Below, piece after piece: positions 24,051 to 35,165 of a stretch of 48,153 bases of DNA. The DNA is from a virus: positions 1 to 48,153 of IMG/VR virus record IMGVR_UViG_3300032323_003286, one strand, 5' to 3'. The position numbers and the translations under genes were made by a program. The notes under the pieces were generated by a model, which was not told where the DNA came from, ran no database searches, and was given only the letters and a program-made list of their open reading frames with translations. Each line of letters opens with the position of its first letter. The first letter of the stretch is position 1.

Positions 24051-24713
24051 TTATGATATTGTTACTGTATATTCTCCTGTTCCTCTATATTGGATAGCAT
24101 CTATTGGAATTGTTATGTTTGGAGTAAAAGTAAAAGTTGAATAACCTGAGGGCACAACAACTCCTGCCATAAAAGAACTTGTTACTAAACCTAGGTCATA
24201 ATTTGAACCCCCTGAAAAAGTACCGGGTACTCCATCTATTGAATATGGAATTGTATTCCCATAGGTTTGATCTATTCCATTATAATTAAATACTGCTAAT
24301 GAATCTGCTCCTGTAGTAGTTATAGATATGTTACCTAAGTAAGTATCATATGGAGGATTTGTATAATTAGAATAATAAATGTTACTTGTTTCAATAGTAA
24401 AACCTATAGGATCTGTAAATTCAAAAGAGGATACATTCAAATAAATAGTATCGTTTGTGTTTGTTTGAGCTGAACCTGTAAATACAAAGTTTATTGTGTT
24501 TATTGAAAATGAACTTGATCCATTTAAAGCATAACTAGCTGAAGGGATAGCCATGTCTATAATAGCGCTAGCAAAGGTTTTAGCCTCATTAACCTCCCAA
24601 GTTCCTTCCATATATTTTGGGGTTTCACCTGTATAAAAAGAGGATGTTGTTATTGTTTCTATAAAAAAATAAGCTGATCCTTCTGAAGGATTATCAAATT
24701 GAAATGTTGCCAT
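24051..24713 (-). CDS. Probable virion protein, Ig-like beta-rich
   Basis: The 220-residue protein is composed of hydrophobic strands separated by Ser/Thr/Gly turns (SFSINTINFVFTGSAQTN, FTIETSNIYYSNY, STFTFTPNITIPI), consistent with Ig-like or fiber beta-sandwich domains. N-terminus MATFQFDNPSEGSAYFFIET is not a signal peptide. Two-gene unit with the 206-residue gene. Candidate decoration or fiber protein; no family recognised. Confidence 0.65.
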   Translation of the reverse strand: MATFQFDNPSEGSAYFFIETITTSSFYTGETPKYMEGTWEVNEAKTFASAIIDMAIPSASYALNGSSSFSINTINFVFTGSAQTNTNDTIYLNVSSFEFTDPIGFTIETSNIYYSNYTNPPYDTYLGNISITTTGADSLAVFNYNGIDQTYGNTIPYSIDGVPGTFSGGSNYDLGLVTSSFMAGVVVPSGYSTFTFTPNITIPIDAIQYRGTGEYTVTIS

Positions 24714-24733: not shown

Positions 24734-24844
24734 TTAAGGTTTTTTCTTTCGGAATAAATTAATTATTCCAAATAATCCTCCTAAAACAATTGTAATAAAT
24801 CCAACTATAAGTAAAAATGGTATGTTTATGATTTTTCTTAACAT
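24734..24844 (-). CDS. Single-span membrane microprotein (36 aa)
   Basis: The 36-residue protein MLRKIINIPFLLIVGFITIV... has one hydrophobic helix (residues 6-30) flanked by basic ends (LRK and FRKKKP). It is the last gene before the GC-rich gene-free region. Plus-strand TATTTATA at 24844-24851 (TATAAATA on the coding strand) touches the start codon. Confidence 0.5.
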   Translation of the reverse strand: MLRKIINIPFLLIVGFITIVLGGLFGIINLFRKKKP

Positions 24845-24869
24845 ATTTATAATATACGTATATATCTTG

Positions 24870-25140
24870 TCGATGCCAAAGAATTTGTGACTCTCTCGGA
24901 TTTGAGTTTTGCGGGGTTTTGATCCTTGGGTCGATTTGGGAATTTGGGATGCATTGTGGGGATAAATGTATGGTATGTATGGTATATAGGGATATACAAT
25001 GTCGATGTGTAAAGATCGTAGGCGATCTGTGAATGTGTCTAAGTCCCGACCCTCACCACCCCGCGCCGTATTGACACCGGCGCGCGTGGGTATATAGTAC
25101 CATATAACGCACGTATATATACCGCCGTATACGGTACCGC
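24870..25140. other. Gene-free region with strand-skew switch and palindromes, candidate origin
   Basis: No credible gene. From about 24880 to 25010 the plus strand is markedly G-rich (GCGGGG, TTGGGTCG, TTTGGGAATTTGGG). From about 25048 it becomes C-rich (CCCGACCCTCACCACCCCG). Between them lie short palindromes: GATCGTAGGCGATC near 25014, GGCGCGC near 25080, ATATAGTACCATAT near 25092 and CCGTATACGG near 25125. An abrupt skew inversion around palindromes fits a replication origin or a packaging/recombination site. No experimental signature can be read from sequence. Confidence 0.45.
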
Positions 25141-25690
25141 AAAGATAGGGTCGCAGGATCGTAGACCCACAGACCCACCTTTCTCCAAGGTCACAGGGTC
25201 ACTGAATCACCAGACCATTGGCTCCCACCATCTCCAGGGTCACCGGGTTCCAGGGATCACCAGGTCACCCCAGACACCAGGGTCACCCAATTACCCAACC
25301 TCCACCCAGCACCCGGGTCACCAGACCACCCAGTACCCAAACCACCCAGTTACCCAGGTCACAGGGTCACCAGGTCACCCAAGCACCCAGACCCACCAAC
25401 CACCCAGACCCAACACCCAGGTTATCCCATCACCCGGGTCACCCAACATCCCAGTTGACCCAGTTCACATGGCACTTGAATCACCCAAGTGCCCATTGAC
25501 CCACCCAGCCACCCAGACTCAGCACCCAGACCCAGCACCCGGGCTCCAGGGTCACCAGGGCTCCAGGGTCACCAGGTTACCCATACCCAGTACCCAGGCT
25601 CCCAGGTCACAGGGTCACCCAGTACCAGGGTCACAGAGATCCCGAGTGCTCAAGCACCCGGGTTACTTAATTATTCAACATGTCTACTGA
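25141..25690. repeat. C-rich degenerate repeat array (GGTNACC / CACCCAG / CCCGGGT)
   Basis: About 550 bases with G+C near 60% (estimated by eye) in an otherwise roughly 30% genome. It is built from shuffled copies of GGTCACC, CACCCAG, CCAGGGTCACC and CCCGGGT. By eye GGTNACC occurs eleven times. The plus strand is strongly C-rich, and several plus frames stay open because the repeats contain no stop codons. No gene is supported. Spacing is irregular, so it is not a CRISPR or a simple tandem satellite. Confidence 0.8.
25542..25575. repeat. Perfect 17-bp tandem duplication inside the C-rich array
   Basis: GGCTCCAGGGTCACCAG is present twice in immediate succession (25542-25558 and 25559-25575). 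This is the only exact head-to-tail copy I see in the array, and points to slippage or duplication as one way it grows. Confidence 0.85.
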
Positions 25691-25843: not shown

Positions 25844-26050
25844 CTAATTTTCTAGATCCGCTTCATGGTCACCATCCAGGATAAACCCATCTAATACCCT
25901 AGCTCGGTTCACATCTGCCCCAAACCCAGTTCTTATCACCTTAACCTTACCCCCAGGTTCTTGGGCCATCACCATTACTCTAAAGTAGTCATAACCCATC
26001 CCAATCATAGCTTGGTCTCCGACCTTTACATCTCTTAATTTCACTCTCAT
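25844..26050 (-). CDS. Small beta-rich hypothetical protein (68 aa)
   Basis: MRVKLRDVKVGDQAMIGMGY followed by YFRVMVMAQEPGGKVKVIRT looks like an SH3/KOW-like small barrel. It has a Shine-Dalgarno AGGAG before ATG and the TTCGTATATT element 20 bases upstream. Codons are G+C richer than those of the structural genes. Confidence 0.7.
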   Translation of the reverse strand: MRVKLRDVKVGDQAMIGMGYDYFRVMVMAQEPGGKVKVIRTGFGADVNRARVLDGFILDGDHEADLEN

Positions 26051-26070: not shown

Positions 26071-26080
26071 AATATACGAA
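26071..26080 (-). promoter_or_regulatory. TTCGTATATT element
   Basis: Minus strand TTCGTATATT followed by GCATAAAA, 20 bases before the 68-residue gene; exact copy of the recurring element. Confidence 0.7.
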
Positions 26081-26096
26081 CCCAAGTGCTTAAACC

Positions 26097-26261
26097 CTAT
26101 GCCTTAACCTTGGAGCCAACCAGCATCCCGGCTTCAAAATAGTAAAAAGCCAGGCGGCCATCAGGCTGTAAAACGGTAATGTTGGCGTCTGCGGTTAAGC
26201 ACCCATCTACATTTTGGATGCGCGATTGATTCAATTGGATAAACGTGTATGCTGTCATATG
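26097..26261 (-). CDS. Small hypothetical protein (54 aa)
   Basis: The start chosen is the internal ATG of MTAYTFIQLNQSRIQNVDGC. The longer frame would begin inside the upstream hairpin (26277-26300), which is unlikely. The rest (TVLQPDGRLAFYYFEAGMLV) is beta-rich. Codons are G+C rich. Function unknown. Confidence 0.6.
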   Translation of the reverse strand, partial: HMTAYTFIQLNQSRIQNVDGCLTADANITVLQPDGRLAFYYFEAGMLVGSKVKA

Positions 26262-26276
26262 TTCTAGATTTTGGAC

Positions 26277-26300
26277 CCCGAAAGCCCGATTGCTCGGGCT
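26277..26300 (-). terminator. Hairpin with GCAA loop, probable terminator
   Basis: On the minus strand AGCCCGA-GCAA-TCGGGCT followed by TTCGGGG. Seven perfect pairs with a GNRA-type loop, lying between the 44-residue and 54-residue genes. The T-run is short. Confidence 0.55.
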
Positions 26301-26330
26301 CATGGAGTGTATAATTAAAAAGTAAACCGA

Positions 26331-26465
26331 TTATTCTGTCTCTTGCTTTGCCATCTTATCTATCAATGCGGCTTTAATTGCATCAAACTCGCTCCAATAT
26401 ATTTCAACTGTGTTATCAATGATCTCCATTATCTTATTTATGTCTTCAATGGTTAAATTTTTCAT
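26331..26465 (-). CDS. Small acidic helical protein (44 aa)
   Basis: MKNLTIEDINKIMEIIDNTV... ends DKMAKQETE. Predominantly helical and acidic. It has its own TTCGTATATT element 24 bases upstream. Its trailer CGGTTTACTTTTTAATTATA resembles the trailer after the tRNA-like element at 27154. Confidence 0.6.
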   Translation of the reverse strand: MKNLTIEDINKIMEIIDNTVEIYWSEFDAIKAALIDKMAKQETE

Positions 26466-26489
26466 GTGTCTCGGTTTTAATTATGGTTT

Positions 26490-26499
26490 AATATACGAA
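26490..26499 (-). promoter_or_regulatory. TTCGTATATT element
   Basis: Exact copy, 24 bases before the 44-residue gene. Confidence 0.65.
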
Positions 26500-26505
26500 C
26501 TGGTT

Positions 26506-26694
26506 TTATGGTCTGGGCGTCCGGTCAATCTGGCTCCCATATTTCTGTGGCTCTACTACCTCCAAGGTCACTATATCTAAGCCACCTAACTCTGCTGCCA
26601 CCACGGCATCCAACTCGCTCTCAAATGCTCGGGCGTTAGCCATGTCATATAAGCCATAATCTAACATCTCGGTTACTATATAAATCTTTTTCAT
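26506..26694 (-). CDS. Small hypothetical protein (62 aa)
   Basis: MKKIYIVTEMLDYGLYDMAN followed by RAFESELDAVVAAELGGLDI and a Pro/Arg-rich tail. The first part resembles a beta-alpha unit. Shine-Dalgarno AGGAG lies before ATG and TTCGTATATT is 20 bases upstream. High G+C for this genome. Confidence 0.65.
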   Translation of the reverse strand: MKKIYIVTEMLDYGLYDMANARAFESELDAVVAAELGGLDIVTLEVVEPQKYGSQIDRTPRP

Positions 26695-26714
26695 GTCTCC
26701 TAATTTTATACTTT

Positions 26715-26724
26715 AATATACGAA
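26715..26724 (-). promoter_or_regulatory. TTCGTATATT element
   Basis: Exact copy, then AAAGTATAAAATTAGGAG; 20 bases before the 62-residue gene. Confidence 0.7.
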
Positions 26725-26750
26725 CTGGCTCTGGTATCTGGGCGTCCAAA

Positions 26751-27017
26751 TTACCAATCAAAATATTCACTAAACACTATCTCACCTTTATCACCTTTAG
26801 AAATAGTAACATTACTCCATTGATTGGTATGTAAAAAACTTATCTCATTAGTATTCACATCAAATCTATAGATGTCTTCCGAATCGCCCCCAAAGCTACA
26901 TTGGATTTTAAATCCATCTTCGGTTTTACCTTCGAAATTAAAGGTGTACTTGTAATATGAACTAAATTTAACTTTAGCATCTCTAAATTTCTCGTTTACT
27001 TGCTCTACTGTCATCAT
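26751..27017 (-). CDS. Small hypothetical protein (88 aa)
   Basis: The start chosen is ATG at 27017 (MMTVEQVNEKFRDAKVKFSS). The longer frame would read through the TTCGTATATT element. Contains KYTFNFEGKTEDGFKIQCSF and EDIYRFDVNTNEISFL, a beta-sheet protein of unknown function. An AAGAAACATG leader without Shine-Dalgarno distinguishes it from the other island genes. Confidence 0.65.
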   Translation of the reverse strand: MMTVEQVNEKFRDAKVKFSSYYKYTFNFEGKTEDGFKIQCSFGGDSEDIYRFDVNTNEISFLHTNQWSNVTISKGDKGEIVFSEYFDW

Positions 27018-27037
27018 GTTTCTTAATTTTATACTCC

Positions 27038-27047
27038 AATATACGAA
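27038..27047 (-). promoter_or_regulatory. TTCGTATATT element
   Basis: Exact copy followed by GGAGTATAAAA, 20 bases before the 88-residue gene. Confidence 0.7.
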
Positions 27048-27076
27048 CCCACCCTCACAACCCATATTCCCTACGA

Positions 27077-27102
27077 CCCCAAAAGCCCGGATAAACCGGG
27101 CT
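27077..27102 (-). terminator. Hairpin terminator after tRNA-like element
   Basis: Minus strand AGCCCGG-TTTAT-CCGGGCT followed by TTTGGGG. Seven perfect pairs. It ends the tRNA-Met / tRNA-like transcript before the 88-residue gene. Confidence 0.6.
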
Positions 27103-27129
27103 CACAAGGTGTATAATTAAAAGATAAAC

Positions 27130-27142
27130 CGGTTATGAAGCG
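27130..27142 (-). promoter_or_regulatory. Conserved 13-base trailer of tRNA-like elements, copy 1
   Basis: CGCTTCATAACCG on the minus strand, 11 bases beyond the 3' end of the tRNA-like element. An identical copy follows the other tRNA-like element at 41632-41644. It might guide 3' processing. Confidence 0.55.
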
Positions 27143-27153
27143 GTGTCTTAATA

Positions 27154-27211
27154 GTGAGGGGTGGAGAATCGAACTCCATCTATGTCTTGACCTTACCACC
27201 ATGGCCCCTCT
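27154..27211 (-). tRNA. tRNA-like element lacking an anticodon arm, copy 1
   Basis: The minus-strand 58 bases have an acceptor stem AGAGGGG/CCCCTCA (six pairs, one mismatch at the end) and a perfect T-arm TGGAG-TTCGATT-CTCCA. Between acceptor and T-arm are only 26 bases (CCATGGTGGTAAGG...ACATAGA), with a D-arm-like GGTGGTAAGG but no room for an anticodon stem-loop. A normal tRNA has about 42 bases there. It may be a decayed tRNA or a tRNA mimic. It lies in tandem with tRNA-Met. Confidence 0.5.
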
Positions 27212-27257
27212 GGGCCTGCAGACCCATTATTTAACTTAATTTCTAGTGGTAAGGTCA
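27188..27257. repeat. 12-bp perfect inverted repeat
   Basis: TGACCTTACCAC (27188-27199) and GTGGTAAGGTCA (27246-27257) are exact reverse complements 46 bases apart. The distal arm also forms a 5-bp stem, 7-base loop hairpin (TAGTG-ACCTTAC-CACTA on the minus strand), the geometry of an anticodon arm. The proximal arm lies inside the tRNA-like element, so the two could pair in the precursor. Confidence 0.7.
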
Positions 27258-27322
27258 CTACCCACACATCCCGGAATCTTAGCTAGCATTTCAGCCCCGG
27301 TATTTGTTACAACTGTATCTTG

Positions 27323-27396
27323 TGGTCCCAACAGGGCTCGAACCTGTGACCTGCTGATTATGAGTCAGCTGCTCTAACCTACTGAGCTATAAGACC
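27323..27396 (-). tRNA. tRNA-Met (CAT anticodon)
   Basis: A full cloverleaf of 74 bases. Acceptor GGTCTTA/TGGGACC pairs with two G-U; D-arm GCTC/GAGC; anticodon arm GCTGA-CTCATAA-TCAGC; T-arm ACAGG-TTCGAGC-CCTGT; discriminator A. No CCA is encoded. A CAT anticodon in loop CTCATAA could be elongator Met or lysidine-modified Ile; sequence alone does not decide. Confidence 0.93.
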
Positions 27397-27403
27397 TTAT
27401 ATT

Positions 27404-27598
27404 TTACTCTAAACTTTTTCTAATTACCACCATCGCAAATATAAAACTCAATAAACTCAATACTACAATCGCAAGTACTGTATTCAATGTAAACAATGAC
27501 ATCACCAATGCCGCTCCTGAGAATGGGTTAAAGTCAAACTTAAATAATACTGTTCCTGTCACATTCACTCCCAAAATAATCGCAATCGCTAACATCAT
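27404..27598 (-). CDS. Two-helix membrane protein (64 aa)
   Basis: MMLAIAIILGVNVTGTVLFK and LNTVLAIVVLSLLSFIFAMV form two hydrophobic helices joined by a loop (FDFNPFSGAA). The leader AAAAGTTATG is the usual early type. It ends 8 bases before tRNA-Met, so it and the tRNAs share a transcript. Confidence 0.7.
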   Translation of the reverse strand: MMLAIAIILGVNVTGTVLFKFDFNPFSGAALVMSLFTLNTVLAIVVLSLLSFIFAMVVIRKSLE

Positions 27599-27639
27599 AA
27601 CTTTTAATTTTAAATTTATCTTTCTTATCTTCTACATTC

Positions 27640-27649
27640 AATATACGAA
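27640..27649 (-). promoter_or_regulatory. TTCGTATATT element
   Basis: Exact copy, 41 bases before the 64-residue membrane gene, which heads the tRNA transcript. Confidence 0.65.
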
Positions 27650-27679
27650 ACCACCTTAACACCTGGTAGTCCAGTTGGC

Positions 27680-28024
27680 TTATGCAGCCAACTCACTCCC
27701 ATCTGCCTTAGGTAAAGCAGGTCGTCCACGCTTCACAGCTCCACCATTTGCCTCAGCCTTGGCTTTCAACTCAGCCAATCGGATCTGTCTTGCACTATTT
27801 GGATTCACAGGTCGTCCTTGACCCACACCATTGGCTTTATTCACAGCTTGTTTTTCCAATCGAGCCTGTCTCTCACTATTTGGATTCACAGGTCGTCCAC
27901 GCTTCAACTCACCATTTTGCTTCTTAGCTTCCAACTCTGCCAAACGGATTTGACGTGCTGAATTTGGATTAACTGGGCGTCCTAGTACTTTAACTTCTTC
28001 TACAATTACATTTACATTTTTCAT
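27680..28024 (-). CDS. Repeat protein with AT-hook-like GRPVNPNS units, copy 1
   Basis: The 114-residue protein has three near-identical repeats GRPVNPNSxRQxRLxxLxAK at about residues 16, 43 and 70, each with a basic residue before GRP (LGRP, KRGRP, QGRP), and a last KRGRPALPKAD near residue 99. GRP flanked by Lys/Arg is the AT-hook core that binds the minor groove of A/T DNA. The intervening ARQxRLAELxAK is an amphipathic helix. A DNA-bridging or nucleoid-like role is plausible in this AT-rich genome. A paralogue is at 30954-31283. This copy is G+C rich at the DNA level. Confidence 0.7.
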   Translation of the reverse strand: MKNVNVIVEEVKVLGRPVNPNSARQIRLAELEAKKQNGELKRGRPVNPNSERQARLEKQAVNKANGVGQGRPVNPNSARQIRLAELKAKAEANGGAVKRGRPALPKADGSELAA

Positions 28025-28073
28025 AATCTTAATTTTTAAATTTAAACTTTATTTCTTATTTCTTTTATACTTC

Positions 28074-28083
28074 AATATACGAA
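28074..28083 (-). promoter_or_regulatory. TTCGTATATT element
   Basis: Exact copy followed by GAAGTATAAAAG; 49 bases before the GRP-repeat gene. Confidence 0.65.
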
Positions 28084-28099
28084 CTTAATTTCAAACTAC

Positions 28100-28168
28100 T
28101 TAGTCCATAATTATTTTATATTTCAACCAAGCCAAAATCACAACCCCAATCCACAATGCTACTACCAT
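28100..28168 (-). CDS. Membrane microprotein D of a four-gene cassette (22 aa)
   Basis: MVVALWIGVVILAWLKYKII... ends MD. One hydrophobic helix with a Lys/Tyr C-terminal border. Starts 4 bases after the stop of the preceding gene. Confidence 0.5.
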   Translation of the reverse strand: MVVALWIGVVILAWLKYKIIMD

Positions 28169-28172
28169 ACCT

Positions 28173-28253
28173 TTATTTTCTAAAATCCTTTGCTACACCT
28201 TCAATTGCTGCTAACAACACTACTATTATCAAAAATCCAATCACTACTCCCAT
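28173..28253 (-). CDS. Membrane microprotein C of a four-gene cassette (26 aa)
   Basis: MGVVIGFLIIVVLLAAIEGV then AKDFRK. Single hydrophobic helix with basic C-terminus. Starts 3 bases after the stop of B. Confidence 0.55.
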   Translation of the reverse strand: MGVVIGFLIIVVLLAAIEGVAKDFRK

Positions 28254-28256
28254 ATC

Positions 28257-28337
28257 TTATTTTCTTAAACTTTTATACCCTTCAGTCCACACAAACACTA
28301 ATACCAATCCAAAAAACAAAACAAATCCAAATTCCAT
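28257..28337 (-). CDS. Membrane microprotein B of a four-gene cassette (26 aa)
   Basis: MEFGFVLFFGLVLVFVWTEG then YKSLRK. Single hydrophobic helix, basic tail. Starts one base after the stop of A, so initiation is probably by coupling. Confidence 0.55.
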   Translation of the reverse strand: MEFGFVLFFGLVLVFVWTEGYKSLRK

Positions 28338-28338
28338 A

Positions 28339-28425
28339 TTACTTCTTACTAAAAGTTTCAATTACTAAATTTACACAACCAATTCCTCCAAACAACAACA
28401 CTAAATAAATAATACTTCCTATCAT
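28339..28425 (-). CDS. Membrane microprotein A of a four-gene cassette (28 aa)
   Basis: MIGSIIYLVLLFGGIGCVNL then VIETFSKK. Heads the cassette behind a TTCGTATATT element and an AAGTTATG leader. Its hydrophobic helix and basic C-terminus match the next three genes in style although not in sequence. Confidence 0.58.
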   Translation of the reverse strand: MIGSIIYLVLLFGGIGCVNLVIETFSKK

Positions 28426-28451
28426 AACTTATCTTTCTTTAATTATACATC

Positions 28452-28461
28452 AATATACGAA
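28452..28461 (-). promoter_or_regulatory. TTCGTATATT element
   Basis: Exact copy, 26 bases before the microprotein cassette. Confidence 0.65.
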
Positions 28462-28475
28462 TTTTATTTTGTAAA

Positions 28476-28784
28476 TCATATTCCTGTTTTTTCTTTCAAA
28501 ACACCATCCAACATATCAATTATTTTCTCTAAACGTCCAGTACAAGTTAATTCATCCAAAGAATACGTTGTTTCCTCATAATAGTATCCACAACAATCAC
28601 ATCCCCAATCTTCCAATATCCCTAAAGTCACATATCCATCTTCAAAATCAAAACTTCTGATCACTGCATCATCATTGTTTTCATTAAGTGGCTCATTATA
28701 TAATTCACTATCAAAATCAATATCTTTAATTTTTCCAAATTGCATAAACATATTACATGCTTCCATAAACTCTCTTGCTGTCAT
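28476..28784 (-). CDS. Acidic hypothetical protein with Cys-rich motif (102 aa)
   Basis: Start at the ATG in GATTATGACAGC. Residues begin MTAREFMEACNMFMQFGKIK. A cluster DWGCDCCGYYYEE near residue 65 might bind metal, but only three Cys are adjacent. The rest is strongly acidic and probably binds a protein partner. Function unknown. Confidence 0.7.
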   Translation of the reverse strand: MTAREFMEACNMFMQFGKIKDIDFDSELYNEPLNENNDDAVIRSFDFEDGYVTLGILEDWGCDCCGYYYEETTYSLDELTCTGRLEKIIDMLDGVLKEKTGI

Positions 28785-28789
28785 AATCT

Positions 28790-28867
28790 TCAATTTAAAA
28801 AATATAATAAAACAAATTTAATACCTACTACTCCTACTGTTAATAACAAACACACTAAAATTTCCAT
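28790..28867 (-). CDS. Membrane microprotein (25 aa)
   Basis: MEILVCLLLTVGVVGIKFVL then LYFLN. One hydrophobic helix. Has its own TTCGTATATT element 25 bases upstream and leads the acidic 102-residue gene (5-base gap). Confidence 0.5.
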   Translation of the reverse strand: MEILVCLLLTVGVVGIKFVLLYFLN

Positions 28868-28892
28868 AACTTTATCTCTTTATTTATACTGA

Positions 28893-28902
28893 AATATACG
28901 AA
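28893..28902 (-). promoter_or_regulatory. TTCGTATATT element
   Basis: Exact copy followed by TCAGTATAAA; 25 bases before the 25-residue microprotein. Confidence 0.65.
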
Positions 28903-28913
28903 TCAAATTTTAC

Positions 28914-29051
28914 TTAGCTTAGTCCTGAAATAAAATCTAAACATTTCTGTTTATCATGGAAACTTACTCTACACCCGTCCACATATAAAAAGTATCCAAT
29001 TGTTTCATCAAATAATACTAATACTCCTTTGTACACAAAACTATTATTCAT
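28914..29051 (-). CDS. Small hypothetical protein (45 aa)
   Basis: MNNSFVYKGVLVLFDETIGY... ends CLDFISGLS. A compact beta-rich protein. The stop is within the GGACTAAGCTAAG motif typical of gene ends here. Confidence 0.6.
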   Translation of the reverse strand: MNNSFVYKGVLVLFDETIGYFLYVDGCRVSFHDKQKCLDFISGLS

Positions 29052-29076
29052 AACTTATCTTTTTTAATTATACATC

Positions 29077-29086
29077 AATATACAAA
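29077..29086 (-). promoter_or_regulatory. TTTGTATATT element (variant)
   Basis: TTTGTATATT, one change from the consensus, 25 bases before the 45-residue gene. Confidence 0.55.
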
Positions 29087-29109
29087 AAAACCTTTAATTA
29101 ACTTAGTCC

Positions 29110-29272
29110 TTAAATATAAACAAAATATAATTTAACACCATTCACCTCTTTTACCTCCATTATTTCTTCTAAAGTTCCAAAATCCAATCCTAATTGATCT
29201 TCTAACCCCTCTATTTCTAAACTTACTATTAAAGTAATCCCACCTTCTAACTCTTTTTCTAAATAATTCATA
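29110..29272 (-). pseudogene. Small acidic gene with a probable single-base frameshift
   Basis: Begins MNYLEKELEGGITLIVS in frame behind a promoter element and GTTATG leader. After a run of four T residues on the coding strand (plus-strand AAAA at 29219-29222), the frame turns basic (RNRGVRRSIR) and stops early. A +1 shift there yields LEIEGLEDQLGLDFGTLEEI...VNGVKLYFVYI, whose acidic composition matches neighbours and whose stop is directly followed by the conserved AGGACTAAG. Either a broken gene, a sequencing/assembly slip in a homopolymer, or programmed frameshifting. Confidence 0.6.
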
Positions 29273-29295
29273 ACTTTTATCTTTAATTATACATC

Positions 29296-29305
29296 AATAT
29301 ACAAA
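29296..29305 (-). promoter_or_regulatory. TTTGTATATT element (variant)
   Basis: TTTGTATATT, 23 bases before the frameshifted gene, directly after the hairpin at 29306-29326. Confidence 0.55.
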
Positions 29306-29326
29306 AAGCCCCTTAAATAGGGGCTT
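29306..29326 (-). terminator. Intergenic hairpin, probable terminator
   Basis: Minus strand AAGCCCC-TATTTAA-GGGGCTT followed by TTTG. Seven perfect pairs immediately upstream of a promoter element. Confidence 0.6.
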
Positions 29327-29347
29327 CCTTTATCAATTATATTTTAT

Positions 29348-29704
29348 TTATTCTTCATCCATTTCATATTCTTTTCTATAACCTTCTAATATTTCAATTT
29401 TAATCTTTTCTTCTAAATTACTTTTATTAACTAATCTTTCTAATGCTTCAAAATTTTCATAACAAAAATCACCTCTATAACCACCTCCCCAATCATCCAT
29501 CATATTATTATATAAAAAGATCTCATCTAAAAAATTATTCACACTATTCATACTCACCATACAACCATACTCACTTCCCCCACTCACATGCAATCTAAAC
29601 TTCACAAATCCCAATAATACCTCTACAAATTCATCTTCACCTTTCAATGCTTCTAAATTACTATTACAATACTCTCTATAAATTCTCTCTAATTCTAACT
29701 TCAT
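29348..29704 (-). CDS. Hypothetical acidic protein (118 aa)
   Basis: MKLELERIYREYCNSNLEAL then DEFVEVLLGFVKFRLHVSGG and MMDDWGGGYRGDFCYENFEA. Ends YEMDEE. Acidic with a Gly/Trp-rich middle. The coding strand here is extremely G-rich and C-poor. No family recognised. Confidence 0.72.
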   Translation of the reverse strand: MKLELERIYREYCNSNLEALKGEDEFVEVLLGFVKFRLHVSGGSEYGCMVSMNSVNNFLDEIFLYNNMMDDWGGGYRGDFCYENFEALERLVNKSNLEEKIKIEILEGYRKEYEMDEE

Positions 29705-29735
29705 AACTTTAATTTTTTATCTTTTAATATACTGA

Positions 29736-29745
29736 AATATATGAA
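29736..29745 (-). promoter_or_regulatory. TTCATATATT element (variant)
   Basis: TTCATATATT, 31 bases before the 118-residue gene. Confidence 0.5.
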
Positions 29746-29746
29746 A

Positions 29747-29766
29747 AATACCTTAAACAAGGTATT
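29747..29766 (-). terminator. Intergenic hairpin
   Basis: Minus strand AATACCTT-GTTT-AAGGTATT. Eight perfect pairs immediately upstream of the promoter element. Confidence 0.55.
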
Positions 29767-29772
29767 CCTTTA

Positions 29773-30123
29773 TTATTCTAAATCAAAATATTCATATTTA
29801 ACTATTATATTATTTTCAATAAATTCTACATTATAACAAATATCTTTCTTAAAACATTCACTACTTAATTTATCTATTAAACAAACTCCATTACCTATAA
29901 ATTCTTTTATATCATTTACATCTATTCCATCATCATTCAAATCTTCAATATAATCTTCATCTAATTCAAAATTATATTTAATAATATCTCCTTCCTTATA
30001 ATGATCACTCCAATCACCTCCTAAACCACTATCAATTAAACTTTCAATAAAATCTACAACTTTATTTTCATTTCTTTCAAAATTATCTAATACAACTTCT
30101 TTTTCAAATTTTACAAATTTCAT
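29773..30123 (-). CDS. Hypothetical acidic protein (116 aa)
   Basis: MKFVKFEKEVVLDNFERNEN... contains GLGGDWSDHYKEGDIIKYNF and LDEDYIEDLNDDGIDVNDIK. Ends VKYEYFDLE. Acidic with alternating strands and helices. Function unknown. Confidence 0.7.
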   Translation of the reverse strand: MKFVKFEKEVVLDNFERNENKVVDFIESLIDSGLGGDWSDHYKEGDIIKYNFELDEDYIEDLNDDGIDVNDIKEFIGNGVCLIDKLSSECFKKDICYNVEFIENNIIVKYEYFDLE

Positions 30124-30153
30124 AACTTTAATTTTTATCTTTAATTATACATC

Positions 30154-30163
30154 AATATACAAA
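30154..30163 (-). promoter_or_regulatory. TTTGTATATT element (variant)
   Basis: TTTGTATATT followed by GATGTATAATTAAAG; 30 bases before the 116-residue gene. Confidence 0.55.
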
Positions 30164-30186
30164 ATATCTATTAAAAAAGCTAGTCC

Positions 30187-30393
30187 TTAACTAGCCATAT
30201 TTTCAACCCATATTTCATTCCTATCTACAACTAAATAAACACAAATATCTTTAAAGTCATATCTATAATTTTTAAACAAATATCCTACAATTTCATCATC
30301 AAATTCATTTACATCATATTCAGCTACTTCACTATTACCTAAATTCTTAAATTTAAAAAAATTACTAATAATAAACATTTCAATTTTCTTCAT
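30187..30393 (-). CDS. Hypothetical acidic protein (68 aa)
   Basis: MKKIEMFIISNFFKFKNLGN then SEVAEYDVNEFDDEIVGYLF and VVDRNEIWVENMAS. Mixed alpha/beta, acidic. Function unknown. Confidence 0.65.
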   Translation of the reverse strand: MKKIEMFIISNFFKFKNLGNSEVAEYDVNEFDDEIVGYLFKNYRYDFKDICVYLVVDRNEIWVENMAS

Positions 30394-30417
30394 AACTTAT
30401 CTTTTTATTTATACTGA

Positions 30418-30427
30418 AATATACGAA
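30418..30427 (-). promoter_or_regulatory. TTCGTATATT element
   Basis: Exact copy followed by TCAGTATAAA; 24 bases before the 68-residue gene. Confidence 0.65.
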
Positions 30428-30428
30428 A

Positions 30429-30677
30429 TTAAATTAACTCAAAATAGTCCTTATAATAATCAAAATCAAACCATCCATAACTACTCTCCCCCTCCCAATT
30501 TTCACTTTTAACACACTTTAATATAGTCTCATCTTCAATAATTTCATCTACTTCCCATTCATCACCTACTACTAACATATGAATAAAACTCATATTAAAT
30601 TCTTCTTCACTTAACAATCCTTGATTACTTAAGTTGTCTGTTACAAAAAATCCATTTTTAATTACTCTATACTTCAT
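30429..30677 (-). CDS. Hypothetical acidic protein (82 aa)
   Basis: MKYRVIKNGFFVTDNLSNQG, then MSFIHMLVVGDEWEVDEIIE and GWFDFDYYKDYFELI. Beta-rich with many Trp and Tyr. Its stop lies next to the following promoter element, leaving essentially no spacer. Confidence 0.68.
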   Translation of the reverse strand: MKYRVIKNGFFVTDNLSNQGLLSEEEFNMSFIHMLVVGDEWEVDEIIEDETILKCVKSENWEGESSYGWFDFDYYKDYFELI

Positions 30678-30701
30678 AACTTATCTTTTTATTTATACCT
30701 G

Positions 30702-30711
30702 AATATATGAA
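30702..30711 (-). promoter_or_regulatory. TTCATATATT element (variant)
   Basis: TTCATATATT followed by CAGGTATAAA; 24 bases before the 82-residue gene. Confidence 0.5.
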
Positions 30712-30734
30712 TTATCTTTGATGATTCTTAGTCC

Positions 30735-30890
30735 TTATATTTCTCGAATTTCATATTCACCATCTACTCTTTCAATGACTTCTTCAAATGAAATTTCATT
30801 CACGTCATAACCTAAACTTTCAATAACGTTTTCCTTTGAATCACAAATGCAACTAATGTTCAATACATAATCAATAACTAAATACTTCAT
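30735..30890 (-). CDS. Small acidic protein (51 aa)
   Basis: MKYLVIDYVLNISCICDSKE then NVIESLGYDVNEISFEEVIE, ending YEIREI. Starts with AAAGTTATG and ends at a stop followed by GGACTAAG. Function unknown. Confidence 0.68.
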   Translation of the reverse strand: MKYLVIDYVLNISCICDSKENVIESLGYDVNEISFEEVIERVDGEYEIREI

Positions 30891-30920
30891 AACTTTTATT
30901 TTTATCTCTTTTTATACTAC

Positions 30921-30930
30921 AATATACGAA
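30921..30930 (-). promoter_or_regulatory. TTCGTATATT element
   Basis: Exact copy followed by GTAGTATAAAA; 30 bases before the 51-residue gene. Confidence 0.65.
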
Positions 30931-30953
30931 TCAAACATTAAAAAAGGTAGTCC

Positions 30954-31283
30954 TTAATTGACTACCTCTGTTTTAACTTCCTCTACTTTTTCTTTTTTAG
31001 GTCGTCCTCGTTTAATCAAACCTAACTCTCTTTTACTTTCTAATTCTTTTAGTCTCTTTTGACGTTCTGAATTTTCATTTACTGGACGTCCTTTTTTAAT
31101 TTCTCCATTAATTTTCTTATTCTCTAATTCCTTCAAACGTTTCTGTCTTTCAGAGTTTTCATTTACAGGGCGTCCTTTCTTTAACAATCCATTTTCTCTT
31201 TTTTCTTCTAAAAAAGCAATTCTTAATTGACGATTTGAATTTGGGTTAACTGGACGTCCTAATTTAATTTCTTTAACTTTCAT
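30954..31283 (-). CDS. Repeat protein with AT-hook-like GRPVNxNS units, copy 2
   Basis: The 109-residue paralogue of the 27680-28024 protein has repeats KLGRPVNPNSNRQLRIAFLE, KKGRPVNENSERQKRLKELE, KKGRPVNENSERQKRLKELE and a final KRGRPKKEK, spaced about 27 residues. Each unit has a basic-GRP core and an amphipathic helix. Here spacers are Glu/Lys rich and codons A/T rich, unlike copy 1. The last KRGRPKK is a near-perfect AT-hook. A DNA-binding, perhaps DNA-bridging, role is inferred. Confidence 0.72.
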   Translation of the reverse strand: MKVKEIKLGRPVNPNSNRQLRIAFLEEKRENGLLKKGRPVNENSERQKRLKELENKKINGEIKKGRPVNENSERQKRLKELESKRELGLIKRGRPKKEKVEEVKTEVVN

Positions 31284-31323
31284 AACTTTTCTTTTTAATT
31301 ATTTATCTCTTTATTTATACCTT

Positions 31324-31333
31324 AATATACGAA
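31324..31333 (-). promoter_or_regulatory. TTCGTATATT element
   Basis: Exact copy followed by AAGGTATAAAT; 40 bases before the second GRP-repeat gene. Confidence 0.65.
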
Positions 31334-31359
31334 TTATTTTTAATATCTTTTAGTCCTTA

Positions 31360-31584
31360 TTAACTTTCATCTTTTATATAACTAATTAAGTCCTCATCAT
31401 TCATAAAACTCTTTTCTTTATACCCTTCCTCTATATAAGTGTCCCATTTCTGATAAGCCCCTTCAAAAATATCTATTTTATTATTTACTTTTAAATAAAA
31501 GTCATCTTCATATCCTCCGTCTAAGAATAATTCCCATTTTACTTCTATTCCTTCTTTTTCTAATTTTTCTTTTAAATCTTTCAT
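31360..31584 (-). CDS. Hypothetical acidic protein (74 aa)
   Basis: MKDLKEKLEKEGIEVKWELF then LDGGYEDDFYLKVNNKIDIF and KSFMNDEDLISYIKDES. Alpha/beta, acidic. Function unknown. Confidence 0.68.
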   Translation of the reverse strand: MKDLKEKLEKEGIEVKWELFLDGGYEDDFYLKVNNKIDIFEGAYQKWDTYIEEGYKEKSFMNDEDLISYIKDES

Positions 31585-31608
31585 CTTTTATCTCTTTATT
31601 TATACTTC

Positions 31609-31618
31609 AATATACGAA
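31609..31618 (-). promoter_or_regulatory. TTCGTATATT element
   Basis: Exact copy followed by GAAGTATAAAT; 24 bases before the 74-residue gene. Confidence 0.65.
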
Positions 31619-31634
31619 TCTTATTTAATAAAGC

Positions 31635-31784
31635 TTATTCCTCTGATGATTTATGTTTTTGTTTTCTTGTATATGTCTTTTTAGAAGGTATAGTCCTTGC
31701 TACAAAGCGTCCGTCAAAATAGCCTTGTTGCTTCTGGGATTCCCTTGTGGCAGTTAAATTAATTTTAATCGTTTCTTTTTTCAT
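31635..31784 (-). CDS. Small basic protein (49 aa)
   Basis: MKKETIKINLTATRESQKQQ then GYFDGRFVARTIPSKKTYTR and KQKHKSSEE. Strongly basic, in contrast to acidic neighbours, suggesting nucleic-acid binding. The promoter element lies only 6 bases before ATG, so the message would be nearly leaderless. First gene transcribed away from the gene-free region at 31.8-32.4 kb. Confidence 0.62.
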   Translation of the reverse strand: MKKETIKINLTATRESQKQQGYFDGRFVARTIPSKKTYTRKQKHKSSEE

Positions 31785-31790
31785 GCTTTT

Positions 31791-31800
31791 AATATACGAA
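31791..31800 (-). promoter_or_regulatory. TTCGTATATT element, unusually close to start
   Basis: Exact copy, but only 6 bases before the ATG of the basic 49-residue gene. The usual TATAA stretch is absent. Confidence 0.5.
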
Positions 31801-32033
31801 GAATCTTTTGATAAAAAACGTCCTCACTTAAGCAGTAAGGTGGCCTGCAATTTATTGCAAGCTTTCAATTTTTTTGTGAACAATTTTGTTTTTTGTTTAC
31901 TCTGTAAATACTTTTGTGCCCGTTAACTGTTGCTATTTACTTCTTCTATTTCCATTACAAATGTTCTCTTATACATATGGCAATATACAACTTTTTTTAT
32001 GTTTTTCCAAGTATTTTTTTAATTTTTTTAATG

Positions 32034-32094
32034 TCAATTTCTACCCTTTGATGACGATTTTTACCCTAGTGTCGATTTCTACCCCGTGATTCCT
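32034..32094. repeat. Three iteron-like copies of TCGATTTCTACCC
   Basis: TCAATTTCTACCC (from 32034), ACGATTTTTACCC (from 32054) and TCGATTTCTACCC (from 32072), spaced 20 and 18 bases and each followed by a G/T/A tail. Such short direct repeats near two helical turns apart are typical of protein-binding arrays. Confidence 0.65.
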
Positions 32095-32315
32095 TGCGTT
32101 TTCGTGTGGTTTTGTATATACTTTTGGAAAGAAGTTAAAAAGGGGTGGGGATGGGTGTAAATGGGTTAGACCACGACATTATTTGTACTCTATGTTGCCA
32201 ATCACATTTTCCACATACCATATGATAATTTCCGTTCGGTGATGATCATTGTTGATGATCGTCGTTCCCTATGTTGATGTTCATTCCACACATGACGATT
32301 CACATTTGATGAAGA

Positions 32316-32332
32316 ACTAATAACATTAGTTA
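32316..32332. repeat. Inverted repeat AACTAAT-AAC-ATTAGTT
   Basis: Seven perfect pairs with a three-base centre inside the candidate origin; could be an operator for a dimeric protein or a cruciform. Confidence 0.6.
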
Positions 32333-32434
32333 TTATTTATGATTTTCGTGGCGATTTTCATCGTTGATTTTCATTTGTGATGACTATCATTGACGATGTT
32401 CGTTCACGTTTATTTTGCGATAATCATCAATGTT

Positions 32435-32506
32435 TCATCGCACAAAATCCCTAATCAATAACATGATGATCAATATACTAAGAAATACTATTACAAATGC
32501 TACCAT
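32435..32506 (-). CDS. Membrane microprotein (23 aa)
   Basis: MVAFVIVFLSILIIMLLIRD then FVR. One hydrophobic helix with basic end. It starts with AGGTTATG 14 bases after the 54-residue gene and ends at the border of the candidate origin. Confidence 0.5.
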   Translation of the reverse strand: MVAFVIVFLSILIIMLLIRDFVR

Positions 32507-32520
32507 AACCTTTATTTTAT

Positions 32521-32685
32521 TTAATCAATTTTCACTCCTAATGTTTTACACATATGTTCCAGATCAATTTCAATATCTCCTTTACTTTCCAATACTGCTT
32601 TCAATGAACCAACCATTTGTACTACATTGGGATGTGTTGAGATCATTTCTGCTTTTTTAATGAATTCACTTAATTTTATTTTCAT
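32521..32685 (-). CDS. Small hypothetical protein (54 aa)
   Basis: MKIKLSEFIKKAEMISTHPN then VVQMVGSLKAVLESKGDIEI and ending LGVKID. Helical. Has its own promoter-like element 28 bases upstream and precedes the 23-residue microprotein. Confidence 0.65.
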   Translation of the reverse strand: MKIKLSEFIKKAEMISTHPNVVQMVGSLKAVLESKGDIEIDLEHMCKTLGVKID

Positions 32686-32713
32686 AATTTTTTTCTTTTT
32701 TTATTATACACTG

Positions 32714-32722
32714 AATATACGA
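32714..32722 (-). promoter_or_regulatory. TCGTATATT element (variant)
   Basis: One change at the 5' end (ATCGTATATT) followed by CAGTGTATAATAA; 28 bases before the 54-residue gene. Confidence 0.55.
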
Positions 32723-32739
32723 TTTCTCTCTCACAAAAA

Positions 32740-32955
32740 CTATTCCTCTATAATCTCTAGCTCTGTTTCGGTATGCCAATTAGCAGTGTTTTCCATTCCA
32801 AATTCATTGGTACGTCCCTTTACAATTACTTTGTAATCTAATCCGTCACGTTCATCCAATTCATATCCAACAATAACTCCTATATCACCAACTTCATTTA
32901 TTGATCCGTTTTCTGAGGATACAATTTTTACTTTATTTCCTACTTCAAATTTCAT
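32740..32955 (-). CDS. Small KOW/SH3-like protein (71 aa)
   Basis: MKFEVGNKVKIVSSENGSIN then EVGDIGVIVGYELDERDGLD is a typical KOW/SH3-like barrel pattern (VGxxVxI...GxxGxIxG). Ends ETELEIIEE. It may bind nucleic acid or ribosomal partners. It begins one base after the stop of the 24-residue microprotein. A similar protein is at 38452-38658. Confidence 0.7.
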   Translation of the reverse strand: MKFEVGNKVKIVSSENGSINEVGDIGVIVGYELDERDGLDYKVIVKGRTNEFGMENTANWHTETELEIIEE

Positions 32956-32956
32956 A

Positions 32957-33031
32957 CTAATACTTTTTAAATAATACTAAACCAATCAATGTCCACCAAA
33001 ATCCAACCCAAATAAGTCCAAACAATATCAT
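32957..33031 (-). CDS. Membrane microprotein (24 aa)
   Basis: MILFGLIWVGFWWTLIGLVL then FKKY. Hydrophobic, Trp-rich single helix with a basic end. Overlaps the stop of the 53-residue gene as ATGA and leads the KOW-like gene by one base, so all three are coupled. Confidence 0.55.
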   Translation of the reverse strand: MILFGLIWVGFWWTLIGLVLFKKY

Positions 33032-33189
33032 GCTAAATCTTTAATTAAGTCCCACAATGTTTCTCCTGTTCCTTTTCCATTAAATGTTACCTCATAGTTT
33101 GGGTCCATTCCACTCAACAATGTATCATCTACCAATTCATGTAGGTATTCAAATTCCTTCTCGTAATAATCACATTTCAAACTATACAT
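33028..33189 (-). CDS. Small acidic protein (53 aa)
   Basis: MYSLKCDYYEKEFEYLHELV then DDTLLSGMDPNYEVTFNGKG and ending LIKDLA. Starts at AAAGTTATG. Function unknown. Confidence 0.65.
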   Translation of the reverse strand: MYSLKCDYYEKEFEYLHELVDDTLLSGMDPNYEVTFNGKGTGETLWDLIKDLA

Positions 33190-33215
33190 AACTTTTATTT
33201 TTTCTTTTATACTAC

Positions 33216-33225
33216 AATATACGAA
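33216..33225 (-). promoter_or_regulatory. TTCGTATATT element
   Basis: Exact copy followed by GTAGTATAAAAG; 26 bases before the 53-residue gene. Confidence 0.68.
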
Positions 33226-33241
33226 ATCTATTTTGGAAAAC

Positions 33242-33682
33242 TTAGTCCTCCATTATTTCTTCTTCAAATATATCACTCAAACTCTCCCGTACACAAGTAT
33301 CTACACTATACCAATAATCCCAAATCACACCGTAACAGGTCAAATCTTCACCATTAAATTTACTTTTAATGTTCCAACCATCACCATCATATTCATACCC
33401 CAATTCTTTTAGGTTAGTTGCGAATTGTTTTGCATAATGTCTCATTACAATACGATCAATTGTGTCCACTAATATACAATCAAGGAATTCATCATCTTCC
33501 CCTTCAAAATCATTTCTCAATTCTTCAATTGTTTCTAACCAAAACTCATCATTGTCATCACGTAATGATTTAATTAGTTCTGAAGTGCCTTTATACATTT
33601 TCCACCCGTTTTCTTTACGTAGTGTAATGATTTCGCTTTTAATAGTATCTAATGTGTCTTTTACAATTTCTAATTTTTCCAT
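33242..33682 (-). CDS. Hypothetical acidic protein (146 aa)
   Basis: MEKLEIVKDTLDTIKSEIIT then NGWKMYKGTSELIKSLRDDN. The middle is strongly acidic (DFEGEDDEFLDCILVD) and the C-terminal half contains GYEYDGDGWNIKSKF and VIWDYWYSVDTCV. Helical N-terminus, beta C-terminus. The high acidity suggests a DNA-mimic or binding to a basic host protein, but nothing confirms it. Confidence 0.7.
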   Translation of the reverse strand: MEKLEIVKDTLDTIKSEIITLRKENGWKMYKGTSELIKSLRDDNDEFWLETIEELRNDFEGEDDEFLDCILVDTIDRIVMRHYAKQFATNLKELGYEYDGDGWNIKSKFNGEDLTCYGVIWDYWYSVDTCVRESLSDIFEEEIMED

Positions 33683-33704
33683 AACCTTTTTTCTTTTATA
33701 CTAC

Positions 33705-33714
33705 AATATACGAA
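33705..33714 (-). promoter_or_regulatory. TTCGTATATT element
   Basis: Exact copy followed by GTAGTATAAAAG; 22 bases before the 146-residue gene, directly after the hairpin at 33715-33732. Confidence 0.7.
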
Positions 33715-33732
33715 AGCTCTTTTGTAAGAGCT
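33715..33732 (-). terminator. Intergenic hairpin attached to promoter
   Basis: Minus strand AGCTCTT-ACAA-AAGAGCT then TTCGTATATT. Seven perfect pairs. Confidence 0.6.
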
Positions 33733-33738
33733 ATTCCT

Positions 33739-34206
33739 TTATTTTTCTAAAATTAGAAAACTAATTGGGGATTGGTCAATTGTGTTTTGTATTTGAGCTA
33801 CTACTGTTTCTATGAATTTCTCTGGTGTGATTTGTTTTCCTTCATATTCTAAAACAGGTTTGAAATTAACACAATCCACTATAAGTGTATCATACATTCC
33901 TCCATCACTCCATCTGTATTGTATTCCTGTTCTGAATCGGAATCCACCTTTAACTTCTTTTTTAGCTTTTTCCCGGTTATAACCATATACCATTTCTCTT
34001 TCATAAACTGCTCTATCAACATGATGATTTATGCCATGTTTCCTTACATAAAATTTATTTTGAAGGTAATCTAAAAAATCAAAAATATACTCTTCACAAA
34101 AATCAATAATAACTTTTGCTTTGGCTGCTTTCTTTTGTGCTGCTAAATCTTTTTCAATTTCAATTTTGTTTTGTTCTTGTTTGAACATTTCATCAAATTT
34201 CTTCAT
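33739..34206 (-). CDS. Hypothetical protein with charged helical N-terminus (155 aa)
   Basis: MKKFDEMFKQEQNKIEIEKD then a Lys/Ala-rich helix LAAQKKAAKAKVIIDFCEEY. The middle contains GGFRFRTGIQYRWSDGGMYD. The C-terminus VVAQIQNTIDQSPISFLILE is helical. No family recognised. Co-transcribed with the 65-residue gene (19-base gap). Confidence 0.7.
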   Translation of the reverse strand: MKKFDEMFKQEQNKIEIEKDLAAQKKAAKAKVIIDFCEEYIFDFLDYLQNKFYVRKHGINHHVDRAVYEREMVYGYNREKAKKEVKGGFRFRTGIQYRWSDGGMYDTLIVDCVNFKPVLEYEGKQITPEKFIETVVAQIQNTIDQSPISFLILEK

Positions 34207-34225
34207 AACTTTTATTTTTTATTTC

Positions 34226-34423
34226 TTACAAACTATCAACAAACTTATACACTTCATGTAACAATGAATCATCATCAATTTGATACCCATCTTTACTAGT
34301 TACTTCACAATCCATGAATTTTCCTGAATCGTCTAACCATTCTTTATAAATTAGTACTCCTTCTGTTTCATGTTGAATAGTAATTGTATTTACTGTAAAC
34401 TGTTCTGTAATTAAAACTTCCAT
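34226..34423 (-). CDS. Small acidic protein (65 aa)
   Basis: MEVLITEQFTVNTITIQHET then EGVLIYKEWLDDSGKFMDCE and ending VYKFVDSL. Beta-rich. Function unknown. Confidence 0.65.
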   Translation of the reverse strand: MEVLITEQFTVNTITIQHETEGVLIYKEWLDDSGKFMDCEVTSKDGYQIDDDSLLHEVYKFVDSL

Positions 34424-34446
34424 AATTTTTTTCTTTTTATATAATC

Positions 34447-34456
34447 AATATACGAA
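34447..34456 (-). promoter_or_regulatory. TTCGTATATT element
   Basis: Exact copy followed by GATTATATAAAAAG; 23 bases before the 65-residue gene. Confidence 0.65.
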
Positions 34457-34472
34457 ATCTCTTTTGTAAAAA

Positions 34473-34718
34473 CTATTCCTTAATTATATTTGCTAATCCA
34501 TTACCTGCATTGATGATCCGTTTAGCTATTGTGTCTACACTTTCAAGTACTTCAAACCCACCATTGTTATGTGTTGTTACTCCTATTCTGGTATGTTTTG
34601 GTTTGTCTATTGTTCCGTAGCTTCTTTTTTCTTCTACTTCAAAGAAATGTCCTATCATGTTTATGTTTATGTAGATAGGTTTTTTAGTTGATAGTGATGT
34701 TACTTTAATTATATACAT
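34473..34718 (-). CDS. Hypothetical protein (81 aa)
   Basis: MYIIKVTSLSTKKPIYININ then MIGHFFEVEEKRSYG and RIGVTTHNNGGFEVLESVDT. A small beta-barrel-like protein. Its stop is the TAG of GGAATAG, so the coding region runs right into the post-gene motif. Confidence 0.68.
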   Translation of the reverse strand: MYIIKVTSLSTKKPIYININMIGHFFEVEEKRSYGTIDKPKHTRIGVTTHNNGGFEVLESVDTIAKRIINAGNGLANIIKE

Positions 34719-34721
34719 ATT

Positions 34722-34943
34722 TTAGTCTTTAATATAAACGTTTTCATAAAATTCCTTCAACATTACACCATGTTCTGTTTTAACATAGTCACGCTCCAAT
34801 TTATATAAGTATTGTAGTGTTCGGTTGAATGTCCAAAAGCTATTAACTGATTTGTTTGTTGGTGTGTTGTAAAATGATTCTTTCTTACAACCCCAATCTT
34901 GAATTAGCTTGTCTACTATTTGTTGTTTTGTTTCGAATGTCAT
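34722..34943 (-). CDS. Hypothetical protein (73 aa)
   Basis: MTFETKQQIVDKLIQDWGCK then NKSVNSFWTFNRTLQYLYKL and ending VYIKD. Basic and helical. Sits 3 bases before the 81-residue gene in one operon. Confidence 0.66.
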   Translation of the reverse strand: MTFETKQQIVDKLIQDWGCKKESFYNTPTNKSVNSFWTFNRTLQYLYKLERDYVKTEHGVMLKEFYENVYIKD

Positions 34944-34946
34944 ATT

Positions 34947-35132: not shown

Positions 35133-35165
35133 AACTCTTATTTTTTAATTTCTTTTTATACAATC

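Follow-up and report, generated by a model that had tools for sequence, protein, structure and literature searches.

The stretch of DNA considered here contains a segment of about 810 nt that differs from everything around it, and the question is what this segment is and what place it has in the biology of the phage. The window, that is, the whole analysed stretch of 48,153 bases, is a viral record classed as linear, with nearly all genes on the minus strand. Its first part (1-24.7 kb) holds a baseplate/tail module together with an exonuclease and a DnaG-type primase, and numerous small genes fill the second (25.8-48 kb). The unusual composition that the first-pass annotation had described is confirmed. 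Positions 25001-25700 have 50-60% GC against ~31% for the contig, and the sequence, analysed in 50-bp windows, is G-rich in 24901-25050 (skew +0.64, +0.76, +0.25) and C-rich from 25051, down to -0.60. The GGTNACC sites counted earlier by eye number exactly eleven within 25140-25690; the whole window has 15, whereas dinucleotide shuffles predict 4.4 (maximum of 100 shuffles, 8). CACCCAG is present in 10 copies and, in the whole window, only in this segment; the exact 17-bp tandem copy lies at ~25542-25575, and the previously named sequence CCGTATACGG is also found. The segment is gene-free, as had been claimed, in that its coding (minus) strand has no ORF of at least 60 aa, while the open frames of the plus strand (25218-25499 and others) result from GC content. 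A coding array was rejected, as the coding strand lacks an ORF and lengths vary freely among relatives.

A conserved element and its genomic setting

The anomaly is real, but it is not one unit. The segment consists of a conserved element, E1, and a separate repeat array, and the G-to-C flip falls inside the 810 bp because the junction between these two parts lies there. In the order of transcription, on the minus strand, the 523-nt array (25668 to 25146) is followed by E1 of about 300 nt (25140 to 24839), a 36-aa ORF and the tail genes. The features of the region are as follows:

24051..24713, minus strand: ORF at which the tail/structural gene run begins; weak homologs lie directly after E1 in L006, L007 and G1
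24734..24844, minus strand: first ORF downstream of E1, 36 aa, read from the sequence as a small membrane-like protein
24839..25140, minus strand: E1, a non-coding DNA element that is conserved and present once (matched by nhmmer over 25136-24839 with 255-263 bits, and aligned in sets of 5, 26 and 29 relatives); its parts in transcription order are an AT box GTATATATAnGG, an inverted repeat CCCACGCGCGCCGnTGTCAATA, TTAGAC, TTTACACATCGACATTGTATATnnCTATATA, an A/C-rich tract and an end box GGCATCGACAnnnnATATACGTATATT
25146..25668, minus strand: hypervariable array, 523 nt, 61% GC, of degenerate 7-9 nt words, directly upstream of E1
25148..25180, minus strand: element-proximal array end GTGGGTCTGTGGGTCTACGATCCTGCGACCCTATC, which, read from the sequence, resembles the short 59-67 nt spacer of L058/L162
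25711..25838, minus strand: small ORF (~42 aa, ORF listing) separating the array from the early genes
25844..26050, minus strand: small ORF of the early block (ORF listing)
26097..26303, minus strand: small early gene; most relatives have a homolog immediately upstream of either E1 or the array
26071..46072, minus strand: promoter-like box TTCGTATATT of individual genes, 35 exact copies (expected 0.22)

Homologs of E1 were recognised by synteny in L007 first, and then by pattern scans and a scan with the neighbouring HD-domain protein. A profile search with nhmmer gave 80 matches, which were reduced to 46, one of them weak, after duplicates were removed; E1 is known from about 45 related uncultured phages. 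The alignment reveals the conserved blocks GTATATATA, CCACGCGCGCCG.TGTCAATA, TTAGAC, CATCGACATTGTATAT..CTATATA, CAAATC and ATATACGTATATT. The position of E1 is constant, always between the small-gene block and the tail operon, even when the first downstream ORF is a different one; a short ORF resembling that of the window is found in L007, L076 and L078. In the window and in two collinear relatives, G1 (106 kb, identical with L064) and G2 (95 kb), E1 occurs once and marks the border of two gene classes. G1 encodes a large terminase, a Gp23 capsid protein and a T4-like portal. The closest isolate is Flavobacterium phage immuto (vB_FspM_immuto, Immutovirus; L129; 160 kb; host Flavobacterium sp. 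LMO8), with 52% identity in the HD protein and 45% in the baseplate protein. In immuto, E1 is unrecognisable by sequence (best nhmmer E 0.4), and the four best weak matches lie in the syntenic gap.

E1 was also considered as a structured non-coding RNA, and this candidate was rejected. Among 26 aligned elements no covariation was detected; their consensus fold reaches -0.5 kcal/mol and no pair is changed on both sides. A search of Rfam gave no match. Since a consensus RNA fold is absent, E1 is taken to act as DNA. It is conserved DNA placed directly upstream of the late operon, and it differs from the putative early promoters. Its position, motifs and conservation suggest that E1 is probably the control region of the late operon, acting as double-stranded DNA at the region where the tail operon starts; on the same grounds, it is possibly a replication start site in addition. 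This putative control element, apparently undescribed so far, is common to a large set of aquatic, uncultured phages of the Bacteroidetes type.

The small genes on the other side of E1 carry a different signal. All 35 copies of TTCGTATATT point in the direction of transcription and stand upstream of individual small genes, on one side of E1; none occurs on the tail side in the window. The box, often followed by GAAGTATAA, is probably a phage early promoter, judged by its placement, and has 24 copies in G1, 32 in G2 and 10 in immuto.

Further observations concern this block and the contigs that were scanned. The small genes just upstream of E1 are extremely depleted of C on the coding strand (window 28000-31500, L007 2000-4600, G1 24-28 kb), with GC skew up to -0.88 on the plus strand and 200 nt without any C on the coding strand of L007; between 4 and 8 kb upstream of E1, third-position C/(C+T) drops to 0.07. 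Two small proteins (window 27680-28024 and 30954-31283, minus strand) consist of KRGRPVNxxSxRQxRLAEL repeats whose GRP cores resemble AT-hooks; they have homologs in L007, L020 and L086, and no Pfam match. A second locus, E2 (window ~32470-31818, minus strand), lies within the small-gene block and comprises a conserved non-coding block, GGTCTAACCC...CTTTCCAAAAgTATATACAA, and, ahead of it, an AT-rich array of words of its own (AAAATTACC, AAAATCGTCA, GAAAATTACC, GAAATTATCA). This layout is found in about ten relatives (L040, L023, L064 (G1), L060, L054, L086, L078, L007, L106), so that a word array next to a conserved element is a repeated habit of these genomes. The scan of genome contigs for E1 yielded L165 (CAIJXV010000083.1, a freshwater MAG contig of 85 kb), which has the E1 signature CCACGCGCGCCGNNGTCAATA and may represent a contig of phage origin that was binned with a bacterial MAG, together with two matches likely to have arisen by chance; matches of a loose E1 core pattern in L045 and L046 were dismissed as two chance matches.

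Composition and turnover of the array

No other non-coding stretch of the window comes close to the array in word repetition; it has 70 pairs of repeated 7-mers per 250 bp, where the median is 3. Its words are all on the minus strand and belong to the type GTGACCC/CTGGGT, namely GTGACC (15 copies against 1.3 expected, and 0 on the other strand), CTGGGT (15 copies) and GACCCT. Periods of 8 (z 7.6) and 17 (z 5.9) are present. In other words, short head-to-tail repeats exceed chance, as in a VNTR or satellite.

Arrays occupy the same place in other members of the group. Measured from the gene stop to E1, they span 616 nt in L076, 457 in L078, 483 in L073, 550 in L150, 346 in L063/L055, 406 in L074, 652 in L082 and 138 in L153; the contigs L151 and L163 are truncated within their arrays. 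With each of L076, L078, L073, L074 and L082 the array of the window shares 61-78 9-mer positions, and 19 with L063, while reverse-strand controls give 0-2 and shuffles ~4 (maximum 17). This same-strand sharing above shuffles indicates that the window carries the same thing as its relatives, not a coincidental GC-rich tract. The words vary by lineage (GTGACCCT, GAGACCCG, GAGGTAT, CTGGTTACC, CTGGGT), the period remains 7-9 nt, and each of the ten arrays shows enrichment of GACC (z 4-8.6). In the seven arrays checked, the reverse strand has no GTGACC.

Other relatives have almost nothing at this place. The homolog of the gene at 26097-26303 lies exactly 18 nt from E1 in L040, L023, L062, L054 and L052, and 40-87 nt from it in L077, L154, L060, L058, L162, L059 and L051; in the window, two extra small ORFs and the 523-nt array intervene. 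Lengths differ strongly even between sisters on short branches, with 550 nt in L150 against 18 in L054, 457 in L078 against 40 in L077, 616 in L076 against 40 in L154, and 87 in L051 against 18 in L052. Arrays are scattered over a tree of five concatenated proteins (12 genomes with, 28 without, 4 unknown). Presence and absence require 8 changes on this tree, whereas shuffling gives 10.5 on average, with a fraction of 0.049 of the shuffles needing no more changes than observed; these counts are approximate because the tree (FastTree) is midpoint-rooted and has no outgroup.

Moreover, there are traces of repeat growth within single arrays. The array of L076 includes an internal segmental duplication of roughly 70 bp, and L163 starts, at 1-202, inside an array of exact 71-nt higher-order repeats. 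These features are characteristic of tracts that expand from a short seed and collapse again; the segment 25148..25180 is a candidate for this seed, and the arrays evolve far faster than the surrounding genes. The contigs L081, L084 and L151 likewise start inside or beside arrays, which suggests that the assemblies were probably broken by them.

Immuto carries two intergenic arrays of RNNACCCGNNNN (66.28-66.45 and 66.76-66.90 kb), mostly with a strict 12-nt period. These hold, in ~600 bp, 15 of the 33 ACCCG words on the plus strand of the 160-kb genome, and the reverse strand has none there. The 8-mers that they share with the arrays of most relatives exceed shuffles; those shared with the array of the window do not. 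An annotated ORF of immuto, gp149 (66811-66933), overlaps one of the ACCCG arrays and may be spurious.

Strand composition and alternative explanations

The proposal of a replication origin in the first-pass annotation started from the skew flip, and strand composition indeed changes at this border on a larger scale. At third codon positions, (G-C)/(G+C) is positive just upstream of E1, with values between +0.37 and +0.59 over the adjacent 8 kb in the window, +0.58 in G1, +0.43 in G2 and +0.34 in immuto, and becomes negative (~-0.1 to -0.4) from 4-12 kb downstream of E1, in immuto from 8 kb. The switch at the E1 border is real and shared by these four genomes, with the direction of genes unchanged. 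By the usual leading-strand rule, an origin lies at the minimum of cumulative GC skew, with a G-rich leading strand. At E1 the cumulative curve has a maximum, the opposite sign, which is terminus-like. The change of gene class offers another cause, and strong early transcription upstream combined with codon usage downstream could equally produce the switch, which was therefore not counted in favour of an origin.

The conserved half may contain a replication origin. E1 and the array might together form an origin in which AT-rich boxes melt, inverted repeats assist, and direct repeats function either like iterons or as closely spaced sites at which primase starts; primers made in the array would be extended across E1 and on into the late genes. 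Strongly conserved single-copy DNA with AT boxes and palindromes, including a potential melting region, is what E1 provides, the sign of the skew changes there in four phages, and all ten arrays are enriched in GACC on one strand. The phage also has its own primase of the Zn-ribbon/Toprim DnaG type, and the complements of GACCC and GACCA are GGGTC and TGGTC, of which the former is a T7-type primase site; T7 primase uses 5'-GGGTC-3' (PMC5517523). However, the skew in the direction of transcription runs from G-rich to C-rich, the array is missing from close sisters, and the repeat unit is not kept, in disagreement with an iteron origin. The words of immuto are RACCCG/TACCCG, not GACCC alone, and its cumulative skew has no extremum. 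GACC (complement GGTC) is enriched in the ten arrays, but for GAC alone several arrays show no clear enrichment. On balance, we regard an origin formed by E1 and the array as rather unlikely.

That the array is transcribed and works as RNA, a folded terminator or insulator halting early transcription before the late operon, is an improbable reading. The coding-strand RNA folds far below shuffles in the window (z -5.2), L076 (-7.5), L078 (-6.7), L073 (-5.8) and L063 (-5.8), and by eye, terminator-like hairpins stand at the array spot in the array-less L106, L007, L064 and L091. On the other hand, the arrays of L074 (z -0.2) and L082 (z -0.7) fold no better than shuffles, near sisters with the 18-nt spacer have no hairpin there, and self-complementary words alone lower the folding energy. 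A G-quadruplex array was rejected, as the window has 9 G4 motifs against 2 in shuffles, but six other arrays have none. A packaging (pac/cos) site, also suggested earlier, is very improbable. E1 is single-copy, and repeated binding boxes are used by some large-terminase phages, but in G1 the terminase gene lies tens of kb from E1 and the array, and the array is dispensable and lacking in near sisters; contig ends inside arrays are most simply an assembly effect. The suspicion of a foreign or host-derived insert, or of an assembly chimera, arose from the GC content and words of the array, which differ from the rest of the contig, and it is hardly credible now. The flanks are collinear with relatives, many of which, from different samples and metagenomes, carry an array of this kind in the same position; the sequenced isolate immuto carries similar words; and BLASTN of the array with its surroundings against phage and plasmid collections gave no meaningful match. 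L055 and L063, from two samples, are 98.4% identical with nearly the same array, and L081, L082 and L084, from three samples, are identical over their shared parts. The array of this particular contig is known from one assembly, as the identical contig L002 ends at window ~21055. Three matches of its 17-mers in viral contigs lie inside genes and were judged to be chance.

Interpretation and comparison with known systems

The explanation that we favour, with moderate confidence, is that the window covers the early/late boundary of a T4-gp20/gp23-type phage akin to Flavobacterium phage immuto, and that the array is a phage satellite or VNTR-like tract expanding and collapsing beside the early/late control element E1. 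Its degenerate 8-nt words would have grown out of the short GC-rich spacer that separates E1 from the last early gene, being copied in a single orientation with the common core GACC. The turnover of the array and its location are shown by the comparison of relatives, and slippage or unequal recombination would be the molecular step. Since close sisters lack the array, it is dispensable, and any role should therefore be one of tuning, through spacing or through binding or priming sites beside E1, and not that of an essential origin or packaging signal.

Words of the GACC type are found again in lineages that are separate, a recurrence not required under pure neutral slippage. It could reflect either selection for the word or common ancestry followed by repeated collapse. 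In a stronger version, the GACC words would be functional; they might, for example, be sites where the phage primase starts primers or where a phage regulator binds, and replication or late expression would be tuned by their number. The array would then be a self-renewing, strand-oriented device that a clade of large Bacteroidetes phages maintains beside a universal early/late control element; we consider this unlikely. If true, it would reveal how late transcription or DNA synthesis is started in this group. The fast array also lends itself to strain tracking as a natural marker, and it offers a means of asking how phage replication creates and erases repeats.

The earlier statement that no phage element of this kind had been described agrees with a literature search of open-access papers, which found nothing on such arrays, and several known systems can be compared. 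Iteron origins (lambda ori, P1 oriR, plasmid iterons) also place direct repeats beside AT-rich boxes and palindromes, but their repeats measure about 18-22 nt, whereas the array words of 7-9 nt are highly degenerate, the array is missing in close relatives and no initiator gene is adjacent. Immuto shares a homologous tail module, intergenic ACCCG-word arrays and the skew switch at the syntenic boundary, which lies at 74.2-74.6 kb; its arrays, however, keep their strict period and lie ~8 kb off that boundary. Minisatellites and VNTRs resemble the array in their short degenerate head-to-tail words, in higher-order repeats such as those of L163 and in length differences between near sisters. Unlike them, the arrays of this phage clade keep to a single conserved site next to a control element, share words across separate lineages and are strictly one-stranded relative to transcription. 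The NCCR of JC virus, a polyomavirus, is a non-coding early/late boundary with a conserved part and a hypervariable part in which repeats rearrange. Hypervariability of this NCCR is described in a published account (PMC11769028). The virus is unrelated, and in the window phage early and late genes are codirectional, the words are of ~8 nt and the role is putative; still, E1 and the array likewise combine a conserved and a hypervariable non-coding part between early and late genes.
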